Below, in pieces: positions 5,782-11,864 of a stretch of 64,000 nt of DNA (positions within the stretch are counted from its first letter, which is position 1; each line of letters starts with the position of its first letter). The notes below the pieces were generated by a model, which was not told the DNA's origin, ran no database searches, and saw only the letters and a list, made by a program, of their open reading frames with translations. This stretch comes from Peptoniphilus stercorisuis (GTDB lineage Bacteria > Bacillota > Clostridia > Tissierellales > Peptoniphilaceae): assembly GCF_017874395.1 (NCBI RefSeq), contig NZ_JAGGLJ010000007.1, positions 1-64,000 on the forward strand, in the 5' to 3' direction. The translations under genes and the position numbers were made by a program.

Positions 5782-6648
5782 ATGATAAATACAAAATTTG
5801 TTGAACTTACTCAGTCCCTTAAAGGTGGCGTTATAATGGATGTTACAAATCCAGAACAAGCTAAAATTGCTGAAGAAGCTGGTGCTTGTGCAGTAATGGC
5901 ACTTGAAAGAATTCCTGCAGATATTAGAGTTGCTGGTGGAATATCTCGAATGAGTGATCCTAAGATGATTAAAGAAATTATGGACACAGTAAGTATTCCA
6001 GTTATGGCAAAAGTTAGAATAGGTCATTTTATGGAAGCAAAAATCCTTGAAGCAATTAATATTGACTATATAGATGAATCAGAAGTACTTAGCCCTGCTG
6101 ATAATGTATACCATATTAACAAAAAAGAATTTAATGCTCCTTTTGTATGTGGCGCAAGAAATATTGGCGAAGCACTTAGAAGAATTCAAGAAGGTGCTAG
6201 TATGATTAGAACTAAAGGCGAACCAGGAACAGGAGATGTTTGCCAAGCTGTTACACATATGAGAGCAATTCACCAAGGAATGAATGAAATAATAAATAAA
6301 AGAGAAGATGAACTTTATGTAGTTGCAAAGGAACTTGGTGTTTCTTATGAACTTGTAAAATATGTTTATGACAATAAAAAATTACCAGTAATAAACTTCT
6401 CTGCTGGTGGAGTTGCAACACCTGCTGATGCTGCTCTTATGATGGCACTTGGAGCTGAGGGAGTATTTGTAGGATCTGGAATATTCAAATCAAATAATCC
6501 AGAAAAAAGAGCTCGTGCAATAGTTGAAGCTGTTAAAAATTATAATAATCCAGAAATAGTAGCTAAAGTTTCAGAAGACCTTGGCGGAGCTATGGTTGGT
6601 ATAAATGAAGATGAAATTGAAATAATAATGTCTGAAAGAGGAATCTAA
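5782..6648 (+). CDS. pdxS: Pyridoxal 5'-phosphate synthase, PdxS subunit
   Basis: 288 aa, normal length for the family. PdxS condenses ribose 5-phosphate, glyceraldehyde 3-phosphate and ammonia to PLP. Expected motifs are present: [34 protein letters not shown], the lysine in [10 protein letters not shown] (K77) and the second lysine in [10 protein letters not shown] (K145). The strong site CGGAGG precedes the ATG. The glutaminase partner pdxT, usually next in the operon, is not here: pdxS is followed at once by a terminator. PdxT may be elsewhere, or PdxS may use free ammonia, which is plentiful in an amino-acid fermenter. Confidence 0.95.
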
Positions 6649-6709: not shown

Positions 6710-7126
6710 TTATGCTGTTCTTAATAATTCATCATATATTTCACAAATTTCTTCAGGAATTCTAAAATTATATAAATCCCCACCATTTTCAGTAAATAAA
6801 AATATAAGTCCAAGTCTTGAAAATTTCTTTAGATTTATGTAAATATTCTCATCTGAATAATCTACCATTCCTCTATAAAGTTCATTAAAAGACTTATGTT
6901 CTACTTCATTAAAATCCATTATATTCTTTTTAAAATCTAATATAATTTTTTTATTTAATAATTCAATTAATTGATTTCTATTATGATCTTCTACATCCAT
7001 AGAATAGTTTTTAGCTATAATCTCTAAATAATTATCTTGTATTATTTCTAAAATATCTTTTAAATCATCAACTAAGGGATGTTCTATTGTCTCTTCTTTA
7101 AAAAACTCATATACAAAGTTACTCAT
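6710..7126 (-). CDS. Hypothetical protein, 138 aa
   Basis: I do not recognise this family. The protein is acidic, soluble (no signal peptide or membrane segment) and mostly helical; the last 40 residues (LKKFSRLGLIFLFTENGG then a strand and PEEICEIYDELL) look like the helix-strand-helix end of a small winged-helix domain. AGGAGAG sits seven bases before the ATG, and codon use matches its neighbours, so it is a real gene. It is transcribed alone between hpf and the shared terminator with pdxS; the context gives no role. Confidence 0.7.
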   Translation of the reverse strand: MSNFVYEFFKEETIEHPLVDDLKDILEIIQDNYLEIIAKNYSMDVEDHNRNQLIELLNKKIILDFKKNIMDFNEVEHKSFNELYRGMVDYSDENIYINLKKFSRLGLIFLFTENGGDLYNFRIPEEICEIYDELLRTA

Positions 7127-7237: not shown

Positions 7238-7771
7238 TTAATCAACTTGAATAATACCGTAGTTTTTATCTTTTCTTCTGTATAATACTTCTACTAATTC
7301 TGTTTCAGCATTTAAAAATATAAAGAAATTATGATTTAAAAGCTCCATTTGAAGAATAGCTTCTTCTTCATGCATAGGTCTTAGATCAAATTTTTTACGT
7401 CTTACAATTTTTCCAGCTTCTTCTTTTTCTTCAGCTTTTAATTCTTCAATATTTTCAAATCTAATTGTCTTTTCAGAATTTTGATATCTATTTTTAAGTC
7501 TTGTTTTATATTTTCTAATTTGTCTTGCAAGTGAATCTACTACTTTATCCATGGAAGCATATAAATCTGTTGTTGATTCTTCTGCTCTTAAGATAGTACC
7601 TGGTAAAGAAATTGTAACTTCAACCTTTTGATTTATTTTTTGAGTAGATAAAACAACCCTTGCTTGAACTTCTTCATCAAAATATTTGTCTAATTTAGCA
7701 AATTTTCTTTCTGCTTGTTCCTTTATAGCATCTGTTAATTCTATGTTTTTTCCAACTAAATTTAATTTCAT
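7238..7771 (-). CDS. hpf: Ribosome hibernation promoting factor, long form
   Basis: 177 aa, the length of long HPF, which pairs 70S ribosomes into inactive 100S dimers when growth slows. The N-terminal 100 residues (MKLNLVGKNIELTDAIK, VEVTISLPGTILRAEE, DLYASMDKVVDSLARQIRKYK) are the YfiA/S30AE domain that sits in the decoding centre. A linker rich in Glu/Lys leads to the dimerisation domain (IVRRKKFDLRPMHEEEAILQ to the C-terminus). GGAAGGAG precedes the ATG. The unit has its own promoter and terminator. Confidence 0.95.
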   Translation of the reverse strand: MKLNLVGKNIELTDAIKEQAERKFAKLDKYFDEEVQARVVLSTQKINQKVEVTISLPGTILRAEESTTDLYASMDKVVDSLARQIRKYKTRLKNRYQNSEKTIRFENIEELKAEEKEEAGKIVRRKKFDLRPMHEEEAILQMELLNHNFFIFLNAETELVEVLYRRKDKNYGIIQVD

Positions 7772-7812
7772 AAAAACACTCCTTCCGAAATAACTTTGTT
7801 GTTATTTATGTT

Positions 7813-7841
7813 GTTATATTTAATATACCCTATTTAAACAA
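7813..7841 (-). promoter_or_regulatory. Sigma-A-type promoter of hpf
   Basis: Read on the minus strand: TTGTTT (7836-7841), 17 bp, TATAAC (7813-7818), about 40 bp before the start codon. I looked for the stress-sigma form (GTTTAA and GGGTAT); both hexamers occur but only 3 bp apart, so they are probably fortuitous. Confidence 0.45.
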
Positions 7842-7877
7842 TTTTAAAATATTTTATTTTTCCCCTTAAAATAAAGT

Positions 7878-7895
7878 TGTGGATAATGTTGATAA
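7878..7895 (-). promoter_or_regulatory. Two abutting DnaA-box-like 9-mers
   Basis: TGTGGATAA (7878-7886) is the exact complement of the DnaA box TTATCCACA. Directly next to it TGTTGATAA (7887-7895) differs at one base. Weaker two-mismatch copies lie at 7940-7948 and 7951-7959. They sit in the AT-rich hpf/exporter intergenic region. Binding of DnaA is plausible; an origin is not supported by the gene context. Confidence 0.4.
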
Positions 7896-7998
7896 CTTTG
7901 TTAATATTGTCTATTACTAGTCTTTATATGTGTATTATTTGTTAATAAGCTGTTGATTATAAAGAAATGTCTAATTGTGATAAATATAAACATTTTTT

Positions 7999-8007
7999 TG
8001 GTATAAT
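7999..8007 (+). promoter_or_regulatory. Extended -10 promoter of the exporter gene
   Basis: TGG-TATAAT (7999-8007), a consensus extended -10, 21 bp before the start codon, with no good -35. The ribosome site GGAGG follows. Confidence 0.45.
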
Positions 8008-8028
8008 TAGACTAATGGAGGAATATTT

Positions 8029-8973
8029 ATGAAAATTAAAAATATTCAATTCAAACAAACTATTGGAATGAGAGTTATAAAAACAGCTCTTGCTGTTACA
8101 ATTGGGCTTTATCTATCTATGTTATTTAATTTAAACTCACCAATATTTACATCAATTGCATCTATTACATCTATGAAACCTTCCTTTGCAGAAAGTTTTA
8201 AAGATGTTAAGAAAAGAATGTTTTCATCAATCTTTGGTGTATCTCTTGGTTTTATTTTAAGTAATGTTCCTGTAGATGATTATATTAAGCCCTTTATTGC
8301 AGGATTTGGAATAATACTTGTAATATATATACTTCAAGTATTTCACATGAAGGAAATGTCTCTTTTATCATCTATTGTTTTTACAGCATCTTTTCTATCT
8401 AAATCTGACAAACTAATATATGGAGTTAATAGAATTATTGGAACTTTTCTTGGAATTATTATTGGAGTTACTATTAATTATTTAATATCTTCTCCAAATA
8501 TATACGAAGATTTTTTAAATTCCGCAAGAAAAACAACAGACATTTGTCTAAAAACCTGTGAACAACTATTCTTATCCACAAAAGATTTTGATTTTTATGA
8601 ATTTGAAAGAGCATATACACACACAGAGGAAATCTACGAACTACTACTTTTAGAAATAGACACTCCCTTTCATGGCGAAATAAACTTAAAACTTTCAACA
8701 GATATTATAAAACTACTAACAGAAATCTATTTAAGACTTCATCTTATTAACAATATTAGTAAAGAGCCTGATATAAATGAGGATAATAGACAACATATTT
8801 CTGATTTATATAAATATACTATTTTATATTCAGGTAATCTTTCTGGAGACTTAAATACTGTTTATAATTATCATATAAATATTATATTTAAAAATATAAA
8901 TGAATTACAAAAACTTATAGGAGTAAATAATGGAAAAAGACGTAAACAAGTTAATAGCACAAAGAAAATTTAA
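8029..8973 (+). CDS. Aromatic acid exporter family (ArAE/FUSC-like) membrane protein
   Basis: 314 aa. The first 150 residues carry four to five membrane segments with the family features RVIKTALAVTIGLYLS, SIASITSMKPSFAESFKD and NRIIGTFLGIIIGVTINYL; the last 150 residues are soluble and helical (about residues 165-314). Relatives (Bacillus YqjA/YgaE type) are thought to export aromatic or other organic acids, with few tested. GGAGG precedes the ATG, and an extended -10 promoter lies just upstream. Its 3' end overlaps the next gene by 44 bp, so the two are probably made together. Confidence 0.8.
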   Translation: MKIKNIQFKQTIGMRVIKTALAVTIGLYLSMLFNLNSPIFTSIASITSMKPSFAESFKDVKKRMFSSIFGVSLGFILSNVPVDDYIKPFIAGFGIILVIYILQVFHMKEMSLLSSIVFTASFLSKSDKLIYGVNRIIGTFLGIIIGVTINYLISSPNIYEDFLNSARKTTDICLKTCEQLFLSTKDFDFYEFERAYTHTEEIYELLLLEIDTPFHGEINLKLSTDIIKLLTEIYLRLHLINNISKEPDINEDNRQHISDLYKYTILYSGNLSGDLNTVYNYHINIIFKNINELQKLIGVNNGKRRKQVNSTKKI

Positions 8974-10639
8974 TATAGCAATTAACTTTATTGACAAACT
9001 TGATATATTAATGGCCCTTCAAGATAAAAGTGAAGATAATGAAGAATCTAAACTTATTAATTTTACTAGAAATAGCAAAGACTTAAAGGTTCATTTTTTA
9101 CTAGATAATAATAATTATAGAATTTCTTCTGAAAAAGTTTTTGACAATTTCTTTAATACTTTTACTAATATTAATGACGATTTAAAAATAGAAATAAAGG
9201 AATCTCTATATCTTAGTCACTCAAGTCTATATAAGGTTAAAAAAATTGAAGATGACTATATAATCCTCTTTGATCTACTTTTATATAAAGAGGAAAAAGT
9301 ATCAAAAGACTTACTTGAAAATGTTGAATTAAATGACTATCTATTTGCAAGAATTGCACAATTTAATAATTATAATTATATAATCCATATTTTGAATATA
9401 TTAAATAAAGAAATTGGAGAAATTTTTTATAGTATGATTTTAGAATTTTTAGCAAGTAGCTTTAATAAAAATATAAAAGAAAATAGAAAAATTTTATTTT
9501 TAAAGGAAAACTTAATCGATATATTTATTATCTTTGGTGTTGCAATTAAATCCTATGAAGAAATCAACTCTGAACTTGAAGATATTGCAGAAAAAGAGAG
9601 AATAAAAAAGTATTTTTTTAAGGAAAAAGACTCCTATTTATTTGATCTGTATATTTCTTATATTTTAGCAAATACAAATTTTGAAGAAGATGATATATAT
9701 TATTTATTAGATCTTATGTATCGTGAATATTTAGAAGATTTAGGAGAAAATTATTCTACTTTTGAAAACTTTTCTTTTATAGATATGTATAAATCACTAT
9801 CTGAAAATGGAATATTTCTAACAAATAGCGAATTTTATAATAGTATTTATATCCTTAAAAAATTATATTATTTTTTAGAAAAACATAAAATTAATACTTC
9901 AAAGGCAATTAAAGAACTTAATTATATTTCAAATAATATTTTTATATTCCAAAATATGTTAAAAAATTCAATTAATGGATTTTATTTTGATGAAAATCTA
10001 TTAGATATTATTCCCTATGATATTGAATGTGAGTTTTTAAAAGATTTTGAAGATTTCTTAAAATATATTGAACTTTTAAATGTTCTAAAAAGTGAAACTA
10101 AAGATATGATAATACCAACTCATGTTAAAAAGCTAAGTGATGAACTTAATTTAAAACCAATTAAGTCTGTTAAAAATATAAACCAAAATCACTTTCCACT
10201 TATAAATCTATTTTATAATTTTGCAAAAACTAAATCTCTTATTGAGATAGAGCGAATTTATGTACTTCCCTCTTTAGAGATAGAAAAATATTTATATTTA
10301 ACTAATCAGGAAAAATATTCTTTATTTATTTATTATATTTTAAAAGAAGAATTTTTAAAGACATTTTTAAGTGATCAAAGATATAAAAGTTTAATTAATA
10401 CATCAAAACTAATTGTTGAAACTATTATAGAAAATAAATTTATAAGTTTAGTTAGTTTAAATCTTAAAAAAGATAAAAGATATATTTTAGATATTCTTAA
10501 AAGACTTAATCTAATTAATATTGATATGTCAAATATTATAAATATTACACCTCTTGGTGAAGATATTTATAATTTCTATATTGGAAAAAATAAAAATAAT
10601 AAAATAATACAATTAAAAGATTACAAAAAAGACCTTTAA
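8930..10639 (+). CDS. Uncharacterised 569-aa protein coupled to the exporter
   Basis: I recognise no family. The protein is soluble, very rich in Lys, Asn, Ile, Glu and aromatic residues, and almost wholly helical. There is no signal peptide or membrane segment. Its final 70 residues (about 500-569: SLNLKKDKRYILDILKRLN, then ITPLGEDIYNFYI) look like a winged-helix module. The start overlaps the exporter gene by 44 bp; TAGGAG placed seven bases before ATG argues for a true overlapping start and translational coupling, not a frameshift. It may sense a metabolite or assist the exporter; that is inference. A terminator overlaps the stop codon. Confidence 0.75.
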   Translation: MEKDVNKLIAQRKFNIAINFIDKLDILMALQDKSEDNEESKLINFTRNSKDLKVHFLLDNNNYRISSEKVFDNFFNTFTNINDDLKIEIKESLYLSHSSLYKVKKIEDDYIILFDLLLYKEEKVSKDLLENVELNDYLFARIAQFNNYNYIIHILNILNKEIGEIFYSMILEFLASSFNKNIKENRKILFLKENLIDIFIIFGVAIKSYEEINSELEDIAEKERIKKYFFKEKDSYLFDLYISYILANTNFEEDDIYYLLDLMYREYLEDLGENYSTFENFSFIDMYKSLSENGIFLTNSEFYNSIYILKKLYYFLEKHKINTSKAIKELNYISNNIFIFQNMLKNSINGFYFDENLLDIIPYDIECEFLKDFEDFLKYIELLNVLKSETKDMIIPTHVKKLSDELNLKPIKSVKNINQNHFPLINLFYNFAKTKSLIEIERIYVLPSLEIEKYLYLTNQEKYSLFIYYILKEEFLKTFLSDQRYKSLINTSKLIVETIIENKFISLVSLNLKKDKRYILDILKRLNLINIDMSNIINITPLGEDIYNFYIGKNKNNKIIQLKDYKKDL

Positions 10640-10652
10640 AAAAGGTCTTTTT
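10626..10652. terminator. Bidirectional terminator, 569-aa gene / histidine kinase
   Basis: Stem AAAAAGACCTTT (10626-10637) / AAAGGTCTTTTT (10641-10652) with T's following on both strands. It overlaps the stop codon at 10637-10639 and abuts the opposing stop at 10653. Confidence 0.85.
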
Positions 10653-11864
10653 TTAATTATCTCTATCTAGTTCTAAATATACTTTAAATAAGTCTGCTTC
10701 TATTTCAATTGAAAATTTACCACCTAAAATCTCAACTAAATTTCTAGTTATATATAGTCCAAGACCTGATCCCTCTGTGGTTCTTGATTTTTCAGTCTTT
10801 ACCATTTCTTCCATTAGTTCATCTACTGTAAAATCATCAAGATCTAGTTTTTTATCAGATAAATTTGCAATTGTAAAATAAATCTTATCAAGAGTTGAAA
10901 CTGTATTTGCATAAATTTTTGTTCCAGGCATTGAGTATTTATAAGTATTTGATACAAGATTTTGAATTATTCTAGATAAAATATTTCCATCTGTATAGAG
11001 TTTTATATCTTCATTGTCAAAGGTATATACAAATTCCAAGTCCTTTTTTTGAAAAGAAGCATCAAAATCTCCATATATTTGAGATACAAGTTCATTAAAA
11101 TCTATAAAGCTTTTTTCAACCTTTACATTTCCAGCACCTGTTTTAGATGCATATATTAAATCCGTTATAAGACTCATTAATCTCTCTGAATTTCTTCCAA
11201 GTATTTCAATATACTTCTTAGCCTCATCATCCATTATGTCTTTCTTAGACAATATATCTGTATAGCTTATTATAGATGTAAGAGGAGTTTTTAAGTCATG
11301 AGAAATATTTGTAATCAGCTCTGTTTTTAGCTTTTCTGTTTCAACTTTTTTCTCAACTGCTACTTTTACATCTTCTTTAATTAATTGTAAAAACTCTAGA
11401 CTTTCAATCGTCTTTTTGTCTGCAAGTTTTGAAATCCTCTTAAGCTCACCTTCACTATACATATCTTCAATTGTATTGTATAAAATATAATTTTGAACAT
11501 ATATATTTTCTGTTGCAAAAATAATTCTAAATACAATTATTGCAACAAATGTATGAAATCTTCTTACATCTAGCTGAACTAATGCAAGGGCTAAAATTAT
11601 ATTTATTATTCCAAACATTAAAAATCTGTAATTTTCCTTATGTTGTTCTAATAAATTTAATGTAAAAGTTGAATCTTTAAATCCTTTTTTTCTGTACTTT
11701 AAAAACATAACTGGCAAAAAGAAAATAAATCCAATTAAATATCCAGATTTTCCTAATAATAGTGAGAAAAATATAAGACAATCTAATAAAATCCACTCTA
11801 AATAAACTTCATCCATTAAATAATAATATATTCTTCTAAGTATTCTTTTAAAAGTAAAAATCAT
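10653..11864 (-). CDS. Membrane histidine kinase of a two-component system
   Basis: 403 aa. Hydrophobic segments at about 22-55, 80-98 and 103-118 anchor it with almost no extracellular domain, suggesting a signal in or at the membrane. After a coiled linker comes the dimerisation domain with phospho-accepting H189 (ITNISHDLKTPLTSI), then the N box (NLVSNTYKYS) and G box (TEGSGLGLYITRNLV) of the ATPase domain. The intramembrane-sensing layout resembles kinases answering cell-wall stress or antimicrobial peptides. The start codon overlaps the regulator's stop by one base, so the pair forms one operon. Confidence 0.9.
   Translation of the reverse strand: MIFTFKRILRRIYYYLMDEVYLEWILLDCLIFFSLLLGKSGYLIGFIFFLPVMFLKYRKKGFKDSTFTLNLLEQHKENYRFLMFGIINIILALALVQLDVRRFHTFVAIIVFRIIFATENIYVQNYILYNTIEDMYSEGELKRISKLADKKTIESLEFLQLIKEDVKVAVEKKVETEKLKTELITNISHDLKTPLTSIISYTDILSKKDIMDDEAKKYIEILGRNSERLMSLITDLIYASKTGAGNVKVEKSFIDFNELVSQIYGDFDASFQKKDLEFVYTFDNEDIKLYTDGNILSRIIQNLVSNTYKYSMPGTKIYANTVSTLDKIYFTIANLSDKKLDLDDFTVDELMEEMVKTEKSRTTEGSGLGLYITRNLVEILGGKFSIEIEADLFKVYLELDRDN

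Follow-up and report, generated by a model that had tools for sequence, protein, structure and literature searches.

Two overlapping genes

Does a gene overlap denote a two-protein machine? In the window, i.e., the whole 64,000-nt stretch of Peptoniphilus stercorisuis DNA that was analysed, the gene of a 569-aa protein (hereafter P569) begins inside the gene of a predicted exporter, and the pair lies next to a divergent hpf gene, in the following arrangement:

7238-7771, minus strand: hpf (ribosome hibernation factor), the divergent neighbour, with a Pfam Ribosom_S30AE_C match at 7253-7420; also found in relatives
7772-8028, no strand assigned: hpf/exporter spacer, with the putative DnaA-box core TGTGGATAATGTTGATAA at 7878-7895
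8029-8973, plus strand: ArAE_1-type exporter ORF, 314 aa (ORF, Pfam ArAE_1 match, orthologues across the family)
8930-8973, plus strand: exporter/P569 overlap, 44 nt (direct reading)
8930-10639, plus strand: P569, 569-aa protein of an unnamed family (ORF, homologues, AlphaFold model, fold matches)
10625-10653, no strand assigned: intrinsic terminator directly 3' of the P569 stop (1 found vs. 0.2 expected)

Judged by its sequence, the upstream gene is an ArAE_1-type exporter (Pfam PF06081; 69.6 bits against a cut-off of 22, over residues 11-152), with the export of aromatic acids as its predicted activity. The original prediction had placed the start of P569 44 bp inside this gene, with a good ribosome site of its own, and both are found as described: an AGGAG lies about 6 nt 5' of the ATG (ATAGGAGTAAATA-ATG), and the ATG itself gains credibility from a relative with 48% identity, whose alignment with P569 starts at residue 1. 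The P569 ORF is a real gene, and the protein a member of a real family, since homologues are spread through the order (Tissierellales relatives), with lengths of about 500-630 aa. Because the two genes overlap, they are probably made together, and the coordinated synthesis that was proposed from the overlap and the ribosome site is plausible. The terminator downstream was called on the minus strand and is near-symmetric, being common to P569 and the convergent histidine kinase gene.

An unnamed family composed of recurrent modules

Relatives of P569 were found in 24 of 101 genomes by single-sequence search, and a 23-row profile recovered them in 43 of the 130 genomes of the window's own family. 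Named carriers, reached via the exporter alignment, include Anaerosphaera, Peptoniphilus and Aedoeadaptatus species, and further members occur in relatives of Soehngenia, Gudongella, Tissierella and Anaerosalibacter. In agreement with the claim that P569 belongs to no recognised family, Pfam, NCBIfam, PADLOC and PHROGs gave no accepted match and a profile search of PDB sequences found nothing; likewise, none of the phage records encodes a relative, and nothing relevant on the family or the locus was found in the literature. The candidates PV_NSP1, XerC, Phage_int_SAM_4, HTH_45 and SelB_WH1 were rejected, as their matches were weak and scattered, i.e., below cut-off or limited to single members.

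Full-length members were seen only in the window's order, and the class sample otherwise gave mostly partial matches of two kinds. The N-terminal matches are mostly to SEC-C-motif proteins of Clostridia (L101, L103-L107), which have in common with P569 a module of about residues 6-250 (e.g., in L101 and L106); P569, in contrast, has no SEC-C motif (no Pfam match among 23 members; P569 itself has one cysteine) and has in its place a helical middle and, at the C-terminus, winged helices. The C-terminal matches are to proteins that end in PRiA4_ORF3 (PF07929; L099, L102 and L108) and that share a module of about residues 370-560, after which P569 stops, whereas they continue into the PRiA4_ORF3 domain (no match to that domain among the 23 members). 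Modules otherwise met apart, in SEC-C and in PRiA4_ORF3 proteins, are joined here in an unnamed family that extends over several bacterial families within one order. The module common to the SEC-C proteins and P569 is covered by no Pfam domain, and in the six SEC-C proteins above it is followed by a short, HTH-like C-terminal end.

Predicted structure of P569

The AlphaFold2 model, which is confident (mean pLDDT 88.1 over all of P569; 88.5 when residues 172-455 were folded on their own), predicts a multi-domain protein made of an OB-like barrel, a helical middle resembling integrase SAM-like domains, and two winged helices. From the model and the fold matches, the predicted domains are:

P569 residues ~94-159: barrel
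P569 residues ~230-346: SAM-like middle
P569 residues ~366-455 and ~481-556: winged helices

Since no Foldseek E-value reached significance (best 0.015), these assignments are based on the Z-scores of VIA-align together with predicted secondary structure, and the matches are resemblances of predicted fold that do not show function. The barrel is small and five-stranded, like OB-type cold-shock, EF-P and CusF domains (Z 7-8.6). The winged-helix C-terminus that had been suspected from the sequence is borne out by the model, in which residues 471-552 align with the MarR-type regulator NadR (5aiq; Z 9.8, rmsd 1.4, 63 residues aligned), and residues 366-455 form the other winged helix (retron effector, Z 7.6; CggR, Z 7.3). 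The helical middle aligns with YopR (8bj6; Z 6.7, rmsd 3.4, 102 aligned), which would suit a core-binding domain like that of tyrosine recombinases and agrees with weak matches of XerC-type and SAM-like models to one family member each, but is no proof, as the similarity is weak and perhaps reflects a common helical arrangement; none of the 23 members matched the catalytic Phage_integrase domain at an E-value of 0.1 or better.

The likeness to MarR-type regulators (i.e., NadR and the DNA-binding domain of CggR) for residues 481-556 appears to be one of fold only. P569 has a net charge of -14 and its relatives range from 0 to -47 (23 homologues), and among the same homologues a basic second winged helix is not a consistent feature and the putative recognition helix changes freely, so that no conserved, basic DNA-contacting helix was found in them. 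For an acidic protein with so variable a putative recognition helix, specific DNA binding is unsupported. P569 has one hydrophobic stretch, which is not kept as a membrane segment in relatives; that is, the family has no conserved transmembrane segment.

Gene neighbourhood and independent loss

The usual layout of the locus is a divergent hpf followed by the exporter and P569, and often by yihY, comFC and recD2; some loci also contain an inserted histidine kinase and response regulator. A survey of whether P569 always accompanies the exporter had been suggested as a check, and its outcome was divided. Judged from coordinates, the two are adjacent in all 38 own-family genomes that carry both strict orthologues, and they co-occur strongly (Fisher p ~7e-25, kinship among genomes being ignored); however, five of the 130 genomes have P569 without a strict exporter orthologue and two have that exporter without P569. 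P569 lies directly beside hpf without the exporter in G160, G163, G031 and G037, and in the hpf region of G039 with no exporter beside it, whereas in G035 and G060 the exporter occupies the same slot and P569 is absent. More distant hpf-linked ArAE loci also lack P569 (L065, L068, L070, L072 and L074), and none was found within the flanks examined of ArAE homologues in Clostridium and Paenibacillus. In four of the former loci (L065, L070, L072 and L074), the exporter is followed by an S9-peptidase-like gene (by motif only) and then by yihY. The possibility that the ~600-aa ORFs after the exporter in these four loci are diverged P569 genes was rejected, as HMMER and HHalign show no relation.

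Furthermore, the two genes are separated in many Tissierellaceae-type relatives that have both. In L142, L143, L144, L146 and L147, an opposite-strand M3 peptidase gene lies between them; the genomes with this arrangement, in which the pair is about 1.9 kb apart, are like those of Gudongella, Tissierella and Anaerosalibacter, apart from one that is a Soehngenia MAG. In L150 they are 5.4 kb apart, with a set of ABC-transporter genes in between. Among tight pairs, the spacing ranges from -44 to +21 nt overall (-32 to +21 nt in most pairs other than that of the window), and in most tight relatives, as in the window, P569 has a good ribosome site of its own. Tight pairing occurs in two separate clades of the tree, and the tight clade L140/L151/L161 is nested among separated ones. 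The root of the tree, and hence the direction of change, is uncertain, but repeated insertion of the same opposite-strand M3 gene is less likely than its loss.

What the overlap may mean

The comparison with relatives does not support the reading of the locus as an exporter-plus-sensor module, because the genes were lost independently in both directions and are separated in many relatives, and no sign of sensing was found. Hence, we lean, by a little more than even chances, towards the hypothesis that P569 is a soluble adaptor or binding protein that is not specific to the exporter and that the pair lies in a compacted part of an old hpf neighbourhood. Under this hypothesis, P569 would be a soluble cytoplasmic protein of an unnamed, order-restricted family that might bind nucleic acid or protein as an adaptor (a guess from the fold classes of the model) in some process that is not confined to the exporter. 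Its gene would be part of an old neighbourhood that reaches from hpf to comFC/recD2, of which the tight pair is probably a compacted stretch, given the M3 and ABC-transporter genes that intervene in many relatives. In the window's lineage, the intervening genes would have gone, leaving the overlap; the two proteins would probably be made together, with no obligate module. Consistent with this hypothesis, the model is confident, the N-terminal module recurs with SEC-C and the C-terminal one with PRiA4_ORF3, and the family has no conserved transmembrane segment. Since the two genes have long been neighbours and yet either can be lost without the other, the overlap is probably due to genome compaction and is no proof of an exporter-sensor machine; more generally, a tight overlap can be a lineage-specific end state. 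The adjacency in 38 of 38 genomes, the strong co-occurrence and the tight pairing in two clades, which selection for co-expression could explain, speak against the adaptor hypothesis.

The adjacency and the tight pairing in two clades, together with the recurrence in relatives of overlaps with good ribosome sites, would fit a P569 that serves the exporter as its dedicated partner or sensor in the cytoplasm, with the overlap setting their stoichiometry. We consider this unlikely, as each gene is lost alone, an opposite-strand M3 peptidase gene or ABC-transporter genes separate the pair in many relatives, and the Clostridium and Paenibacillus homologues lack P569 within the flanks examined. No feature of the ArAE_1 family (PF06081) accounts for P569. 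A less exclusive version, in which P569 acts as a cytoplasmic gate or cargo adaptor for some ArAE exporters, at a ratio fixed by coupled translation, and has a further function that would keep it when the exporter is lost, would mean a new kind of accessory subunit for these exporters, but seems to us quite improbable. We think much the same of the idea that P569 binds DNA and regulates the divergent hpf/exporter region: the two predicted winged helices, of MarR/CggR-like shape, and the persistence of P569 beside hpf after exporter loss are in keeping with it, but the protein is acidic, its second winged helix is neither consistently basic nor conserved in the putative recognition helix, and the boxes in the spacer are DnaA-like and lie upstream of hpf even where the exporter and P569 are kilobases away. 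Finally, the overlap might be incidental gene packing with no regulatory meaning. The variable overlap length among tight pairs would fit this, but the strong separate ribosome site before P569, in the window and most tight relatives, makes it very doubtful.

Putative DnaA boxes upstream of hpf

The boxes themselves may be worth more than the observation on P569. By sequence, they look like DnaA boxes, and the tandem TGTGGATARTGTKGATAA, which matches the spacer core, occurs exactly once in each of five genomes of the genus (at 7878-7895 in G000 and near hpf in the other four). In relatives (L224-L252), including some in which the exporter lies kilobases off, hpf is preceded by a putative DnaA-box array of fixed spacing, with typical offsets of 0, 32, 44, 53, 76 and 103 and the last box inverted; the window retains only the core of this array. 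A strict core pattern was found once each in 19 of 60 genomes of the order, with 0 control hits, and always upstream of hpf and on the hpf strand, 473-859 nt before the C-terminal domain of hpf. The array is mainly an order-level feature, since the strict array pattern occurred in 1 of 391 genomes of the class sample. That the array is oriC was rejected: dnaA of G000 is on another contig, and dnaA is far from hpf in the complete genomes compared. With this array, it can be tested directly whether the control of replication might be linked to ribosome hibernation.

Two minor observations concern the genes on the other side of hpf. A pdxS homologue (SOR/SNZ; 5782-6648) adjoins a GntR/aminotransferase (PdxR-like) regulator, and no ORF of pdxT size follows it directly on its own strand. 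A 138-aa ORF (6710-7126), with no accepted family, is kept near hpf in genus mates.
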